Source: Opitutales bacterium | GTDB lineage: Bacteria > Verrucomicrobiota > Verrucomicrobiia > Opitutales > Coraliomargaritaceae | Direction: 5' to 3' | NCBI GenBank assembly: GCA_030729385.1 | Contig: JANQXM010000007.1 | Span: forward strand, 1 to 41,982 | Length of the DNA: 41,982 nt | Shown here: positions 30,287 through 30,848 of the stretch, piece after piece | Numbering within the stretch: the first letter of the stretch is position 1 | How the letters are laid out: each line of letters begins with the position of its first letter | The notes under the pieces: generated by a model | What the model was told of the DNA's origin: nothing | The model's input: the letters and a program-made list of their open reading frames with translations, nothing else | Database searches by the model: none | Program-made: the position numbers and the translations under genes

Positions 30287-30386
30287 GTGTAGCCACGTCA
30301 CTCTCTCGACCTGAGCTTGTCGAAGGTGTGACGTGTCATGTCCAACCCGTCTCCAACGATCGCCCCAGAGACTGGGGCGGCTACAC
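30287..30386. repeat. Palindromic element, copy 1 (100 bp)
   Basis: The ends are an 8-bp inverted repeat, GTGTAGCC and GGCTACAC. Inside are a CACGTCAC/GTGACGTG stem and a CGCCCC/GGGGCG stem with loop AGAGACT. Compared with copy 2, the loop of the first stem carries about 24 extra bases that contain CTGAGCTTGTCGAAGG, itself flanked by TCGAC/GTCGA. Confidence 0.8.
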
Positions 30387-30387
30387 A

Positions 30388-30492
30388 CAGGCACAAAAAA
30401 GCCCGCCGACTCGAAAAGTCTGACGGGCTAAAAATGGTGGGAGCTACAGAATTCGTTCCGAGGGAGCTACACGACCGACATGACCGGGCACT
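30388..30492 (-). repeat. Direct repeat A: terminator plus tRNA-Val tail
   Basis: 105 bp, nearly identical to repeat B. On the minus strand it holds a segment identical to the last 21 bases of tRNA-Val (30435-30455), then a terminator (stem 30401-30428, U-tract 30395-30400). The rest (GTTCCGAGGGAGCTAC and onward) does not match the tRNA. Confidence 0.8.
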
Positions 30493-30568
30493 GTGTAGCC
30501 ACGTCACTCTGTGACGTGTCATGTCCAGCCGTCCTTCAGAAACGCCCCAGAGACTAGGGCGGCTACAC
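30493..30568. repeat. Palindromic element, copy 2 (76 bp)
   Basis: Same family as copy 1: outer ends GTGTAGCC/GGCTACAC, an 8-bp CACGTCAC/GTGACGTG stem with a TCT loop, and a CGCCC/GGGCG stem. This is the compact form without the inserted loop. It sits exactly between direct repeats A and B. Confidence 0.8.
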
Positions 30569-30672
30569 AGACACAAAAAAGCCCGCCAACTCGAAAAGTC
30601 GACGGGCTAAAAATGGTGGGAGCTACAGAATTCGTTCCGAGGGAGTTACGCGACCGACATGACCGGGCACTG
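30568..30672 (-). repeat. Direct repeat B: terminator plus tRNA-Val tail
   Basis: 105 bp, differing from repeat A at only a few positions. The minus strand again reads the tRNA-Val 3' tail ending in CCA (30614-30634), followed by a terminator (stem 30581-30607, U-tract 30575-30580). It begins 180 bp after repeat A begins. Confidence 0.8.
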
Positions 30673-30731
30673 AGCTTGCGAAGGGAACCGGACCATCGAA
30701 GATGAGAATTCGAAACTGACAACACAGACAC

Positions 30732-30765
30732 AAAAAAAGCCCGCCAACTCGAAAAGTCGACGGGC
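30732..30765 (-). terminator. Terminator of tRNA-Val
   Basis: On the minus strand GCCCGTCGACT pairs with GAGTTGGCGGGC (stem about 11 bp, some G-U) and is followed by seven U residues. It begins six bases after the tRNA CCA end. Copies of it occur in direct repeats A and B. Confidence 0.85.
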
Positions 30766-30771
30766 TAAAAA

Positions 30772-30848
30772 TGGTGGGAGCTACAGAATTCGAATCTGCG
30801 ACCTCATCCATGTCAAGGATGCGCTCTAACCAACTGAGCTAAGCCCCC
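30772..30848 (-). tRNA. trnV: tRNA-Val (GAC anticodon)
   Basis: Cloverleaf on the minus strand: acceptor GGGGGCT/AGCTCCC (one G-U), D-arm AGCTCAGTTGGTTAGAGC, anticodon stem CATCC/GGATG around TTGACAT (anticodon GAC), T-arm GCAGA/TCTGT with loop TTCGAAT, discriminator A and an encoded CCA end. Its last 21 bases are repeated twice downstream. Confidence 0.96.

Follow-up and report, generated by a model that had tools for sequence, protein, structure and literature searches.

A probable array of tRNA-linked repeats behind tRNA-Val in a verrucomicrobial genome

The DNA downstream of a tRNA-Val gene in an Opitutales bacterium is probably an array of tRNA-linked repeats (TLRs), short units that carry a copy of the 3′ end of the tRNA gene they follow. 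The basis is the anatomy of the unit, its recurrence behind other tRNA genes, its position in the T-loop, the complementarity of one arm to the particular tRNA and the constancy of the tail copies, all observed in the window (the whole stretch of 41,982 nucleotides analysed, from contig JANQXM010000007.1), elsewhere in its genome or in related genomes. The window elements classify as TLRs by layout, with a core and a host phylum that are new for TLRs; as far as the literature we found reaches, no elements of this kind have been described outside E. coli and related bacteria.

The tRNA-Val(GAC) gene lies on the minus strand at 30772..30848 with its CCA encoded (ARAGORN; RF00005). Sequence comparison identified its 21-nt tail, from C56 of the T-loop to CCA (30772..30792, minus strand; TGGTGGGAGCTACAGAATTCG on the plus strand), at two further minus-strand sites, 30614..30634 and 30435..30455, each identical at 21 of 21 positions. 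Three minus-strand intrinsic terminators accompany these tails, and all fold well: terminator 1 (30738..30766; −20.9 kcal/mol, z −6.4), terminator 2 (30580..30608), which is identical to it in sequence, and the slightly diverged terminator 3 (30400..30429, the stem at about 30400-30429; −19.2 kcal/mol, z −4.8). Tail and terminator together span 30733-30792 at the gene and match 30575-30634 at 60 of 60 positions and 30396-30455 at 77% over 60 nt, both ungapped, the terminator of the last being offset by one base. The original prediction that the tail, CCA included, and the terminator are present three times is thus confirmed. An exact 21-mer is expected by chance within 600 bp with a probability of about 1e-10, and a search of the whole 2.59-Mb genome at up to one mismatch found the 17-mer tail string GGGAGCTACAGAATTCG at these three sites only (reversed control, 0). 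The repeated unit is longer than the 105 bp at first proposed: the distal copies recur with a period of 179 bp, the spacing to the gene copy is 158 bp, and the duplication comprises 30287-30492 against 30493-30672, with a dispersed palindromic repeat included.

Read in the orientation of the tRNA, the units consist of an arm complementary to the T-arm, a small hairpin (of the type TCACC TGC GGTG), a core, a tail from C56 to CCA and a terminator. The core runs GTTCCGG TTCGC..GCG CCCGGTC WTGTCG, a hairpin and then CTCGGAA (abbreviated GTTCCGG...GCCCGGTC...CTCGGAA), and its insertion point is in the T-loop, exactly between TT and C56. Core hairpins b and a covary. A further possible core stem, GTTCCG/CGGAAC, was left unused because its columns are invariant and GGTCCGG variants disrupt it. 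Pairing between the left arm and the tail of the same unit averages −10.5 kcal/mol, as against −7.5 kcal/mol (sd 0.4) after exchanging tails at random between units and −5.8 kcal/mol for the arm in solo cores, which have no adjoining tRNA.

The window holds two such elements, the first of which starts about 55 nt past the tRNA-Val end. Its core, GGTCCGG...GCCCGGTCATGTCG...CTCGGAA (30635..30694, minus strand), was found by pattern match and scores 58.6 bits with R1, a covariance model built on 23 copies. Its left arm (30693..30718, minus strand) is a degenerate inverted T-arm copy, GAATTC-TC-ATCT, followed by hairpin c (CATC TTC GATG); this assignment comes from reading the sequence, and relatives have an arm at the same position and by the same rule. 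The tRNA-derived expectation is GAATTC-GA-ATCT, and the change from GA to TC also appears, on reading, in other units of the class. The fold of this proximal unit is no better than that of shuffles (z +1.4); the unit is complete yet decaying. In the distal element the core is reduced to its 3′ half, GCCCGGTC...CTCGGAA (30456..30492, minus strand; pattern match, only 15.4 bits with R1), and in place of the 5′ half of the element stands an inverted repeat with dispersed copies, GTGTAGCC...GGCTACAC (30493..30569). A second copy of this palindromic repeat, with a further insert, lies at 30287..30388; an arm of the repeat (GTGTAGCCACGTCACTC...GGCTACAC within the array, 30287-30388 and 30493-30569) occurs at about thirty other sites in the genome. 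The distal unit (30435-30490) also has TGTAGCTCCC in both its core hairpin and its tail, about 23 bp apart, perhaps by chance and perhaps by conversion. As part of the array explanation as a whole, the distal unit probably arose later by tandem copying, and the dispersed palindrome then took the place of its 5′ half.

Such a tandem duplication of the distal half at a later stage is the one part of the early suggestion of tandem terminators made by slippage that stood; nothing else at the locus fits it. In a stronger form, the terminators would be kept for tight termination, with tail and core as passengers of a slippage duplication. The three intact terminators of the window agree with this, as does the presence of dual terminators around a TLR at E. 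coli rrnB (PMC8144298), but we consider it unlikely: the tRNA-Ser(GGA) unit has an exact tail without a good second terminator, intact tail and core have already been seen without a terminator at some tRNAs, and a conserved, covarying core is left unexplained.

The same arrangement recurs at other tRNA genes of this genome. Among 31 judgeable tRNA genes, with loci taken individually, about 9 have a tail copy at a spacing of about 130–164 nt: His, Leu(AAG), Leu(CAG), Met, Phe, Ser(CGA), Ser(GGA), Val (twice) and, as the ninth carrier, Asp, which was read across a contig break. Searching the genome with the window locus itself returned a tRNA-Leu and a tRNA-Asp locus, where their own tails and terminators are duplicated and common sequence lies between. 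The pattern GCCCGGTC N(5-35) CTCGGAA has 5 matches in this genome and is present in 28 of 57 relatives; R1 matches 29 of the 57, with 1 to 13 copies each and nearly all in one family, and across the phylum it matches 8 of 194 sampled genomes, again nearly all of that family. In relatives the same layout, with its own tail in each case, follows tRNAs for Val, Leu (AAG, CAG, UAA, CAA, GAG), Asp, Gln, Met, Gly, Thr and Arg. The suggestion that a repeat family captured the tRNA end is therefore supported in substance, as a core family situated at T-loops with the tail of the host tRNA on its 3′ side.

Other core classes occur at His, Phe, Ser, Glu, Asn and Pro. The start of the His, Ser and Glu units resembles E. 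coli RtT (GGATGAGAA or similar), and a third kind of core belongs to the units at Phe and Asn, seen in this genome at tRNA-Phe (L270, 1556-1800) and in relative G010 at tRNA-Asn (L288, 1555-1850), where the variable loop and T-arm of the tRNA are copied in inverted orientation over 22 nt to form the left arm. In G010 a tail copy is found at about six or seven of 43 tRNAs, a duplicated tRNA-Lys/Thr pair being left aside. Draft contigs often end at units (L004/L002, L062, L068, L074, L075, L094), so short-read assemblies probably undercount them.

Repeats of a tRNA 3′ end had also been interpreted as traces of integration at a tRNA attachment site. Tyrosine integrases leave tail copies that start in the T-loop, and the window copies are exact over 21 nt and start there; the T-loop break point and the restored tRNA end are features shared with integrase attB/attP pairs at tRNA 3′ ends. 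That an island or phage once inserted site-specifically here, with the tRNA-Val 3′ end as its attB, and left a scar is nevertheless very improbable. Tail-to-tail intervals of 137–158 bp leave no room for an island, eight genes neighbouring the locus are housekeeping genes, and, as was seen at the outset, no integrase lies between the repeats and the terminator is copied as well. The structure moreover stands behind many unrelated tRNAs, and each time the tail, and often the terminator, is that of the tRNA concerned, a result that one integrase with one attP cannot give. In genus g3, tRNA-Val ends in the same tail and lacks the element, which agrees with the TLR reading; against that reading, the tail copy at tRNA-Val of the sister genome G002 has decayed to 5 mismatches and the core there is interrupted by another repeat. 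The comparison of filled and empty sites used tRNA-Val itself as the anchor and not lpxB synteny because tRNA-Val is not near lpxB in the named genomes; the window LpxB is at most 77% identical to Puniceicoccaceae and Coraliomargarita sequences, which places the genome in an Opitutales lineage of the Verrucomicrobiota.

Not every core adjoins a tRNA. Among 109 core matches examined, 40 lie at most 450 bp downstream of a same-strand tRNA and 4 more lie on the other side of tRNA-Ser or tRNA-Arg in the opposite orientation. At L053, L224 and L215, where cores lie upstream of tRNA-Ser or tRNA-Arg, the duplicate is the 5′ end of the tRNA as far as the D-loop, a mirror image of the T-loop case. An upstream copy of the right flank (at most 2 mismatches in 16) was found for 30 of 38 scored tRNA-linked cores versus 0 of 52 solo cores, in a table that was sorted by hand and omits a few units whose tRNA is lost to contig ends or N, as well as units with a tail-like flank and no recognised tRNA. 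Solo cores make up about half of the matches, with no flanking duplication seen, and the core itself therefore needs no tRNA. In two g3 species (L192 1501-1576 and L212 1501-1576) a solo core lies in frame in one long open frame with several UvrA-matching stretches, apparently close to the point where the two parts of a double-length UvrA join. Dispersal of the 105-bp unit away from tRNAs, which had been proposed as the finding that would make the tRNA match secondary, applies to tail-less cores and not to the full unit; wherever a tRNA adjoins the core, the tRNA match is primary. In 18 units the 45 bp that follow the tail have diverged to less than 75% (random expectation 49%), yet tail identity is still about 96%. 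The tail figure is biased upward because copies were found through tail similarity, and gene conversion could be another cause of the likeness; the decayed Val tail copy of G002 is a counter-example.

TLRs have been known since 1978. In E. coli there are 22 at ten loci, including the tandem repeats of tyrT and RrA, RrB and RrF behind rrnA, rrnB and rrnD; they have no established function, and an early claim for tyrT was retracted (PMC8144298). RrA, RrB and RrF are read-through transcripts between two terminators that bind Hfq and CsrA in vitro, and the 3′ end of RrB lies 3 nt past the tail copy (PMC8144298). In our analysis of MG1655, the tyrT repeats gave four RtT (RF00391) matches, one tyrT copy reads GGGGAAGG-TGA-GAACCTTCGACTAAGGTTCGA...core...AATCCTTCCCCCACCACCA, that is, inverted T-arm, hairpin, core and tail, and the rrnB unit sits between T1 and T2. 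The verrucomicrobial units share the element order of tyrT and the flanking by two terminators of rrnB. They too lie directly downstream of a tRNA (in E. coli, a tRNA or rRNA), here immediately behind the gene in its operon, and their 3′ ends are identical to that of the tRNA before them (over 18–19 nt in E. coli; over 21 nt here, 21/21 twice in the window). As in E. coli, where one to five units stand at each locus, there are tandem units at a single locus and units at several loci of the genome, with a tail specific to each locus (9 of 31 tRNAs here, with two units at Val).

By contrast, the cores are unlike and their models match in neither direction. The tail copy starts from C56 here and from AATCC there, the terminator is here often duplicated along with the tail, and the host belongs to the Verrucomicrobiota, with solo cores away from tRNAs common. 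RtT gave no match at the window locus or at 12 others at E values up to 5 and none above its gathering cut-off of 45 in 38 relatives; no Rfam family matched the window core at E values up to 5; and R1 found nothing on E. coli tyrT or rrnB. Homology between the window type of core (class B) and E. coli RtT was rejected on this reciprocal failure, so the likeness to RtT RNA is one of architecture, and the units represent a new TLR version in another phylum because covariance models do not identify their core as RtT. An RtT-like unit does occur outside Gammaproteobacteria, at tRNA-Pro of G002 (L097 1501-1627), with tail and terminator duplicated; it scores 33.3 bits over the full RtT model, under the gathering score of 45. 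REP/REPIN palindromic repeats resemble the cores in being short, two-hairpin and dispersed at low to moderate copy number, but differ in that the present units have a fixed T-loop position with tail copies, in a genome without a Y1 transposase. A search for Y1_Tnp found none in this genome (G000) or in G008, G012, G015 and G016, all of which bear cores, and a RAYT-driven REP element was rejected on this result.

We suggest that these units originate when a short core, able to sit in many places, enters a tRNA gene at the T-loop position. Duplication of the gene 3′ end and terminator would keep the tRNA gene whole, and selection would favour core entry that comes with such a duplication. The inverted T-arm copy may be made alongside, as by template switching at a hairpin. 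By analogy with E. coli TLRs, RNA polymerase would sometimes pass the first terminator so that the unit joins the pre-tRNA, the tail copy and left arm would pair as a T-stem mimic, and trimming at the tail copy, as at a tRNA, would yield a small RNA, with transcription stopping at the next terminator. Most likely, then, the unit would be copied in tRNA transcripts through terminator read-through and trimmed at its tail copy.

The main rival is a purely selfish element: selfish or neutral DNA in which a short mobile core lands at T-loop-like sites, the duplication of tail and terminator lets the cell survive, and any RNA is idle. This is possible, and several observations agree with it, namely the frequency of solo cores without flanking duplication, the core in frame inside a double-length UvrA in two species, the patchy tRNA-Val occupancy between sister genera and the decay of the window and G002 copies. 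We nonetheless find it doubtful, as tails and tRNA-specific left arms are still matched where neighbouring sequence has decayed, the terminator pair of tRNA-Leu(CAG) has diverged with its stems still paired, as read from the sequence, and no known mobilising enzyme is tied to the core, Y1 being absent from the genomes searched. An array of TLRs thus remains our preferred reading of the window locus.

More tentatively, TLRs may be bacterium-wide structured elements that break tRNA genes at the T-loop (or, from the other side, at the D-loop) and restore the end of the gene by means of one inverted and one direct copy, so making tRNA-tail-bearing small RNAs, with several unrelated cores sharing this layout in Verrucomicrobiota and Gammaproteobacteria. 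For annotators, repeated tRNA ends need not signify an integrated island, and assemblies break at repeats of the TLR type. TLRs have been treated as an enterobacterial matter in the literature we found, and they now have a second, distant lineage. It offers comparative material, with a unit at roughly one tRNA gene in three, several classes of core, sites that are filled or empty in sister species, and solo cores. With this material one can ask whether TLRs act as regulatory RNAs or as parasites on tRNA genes.
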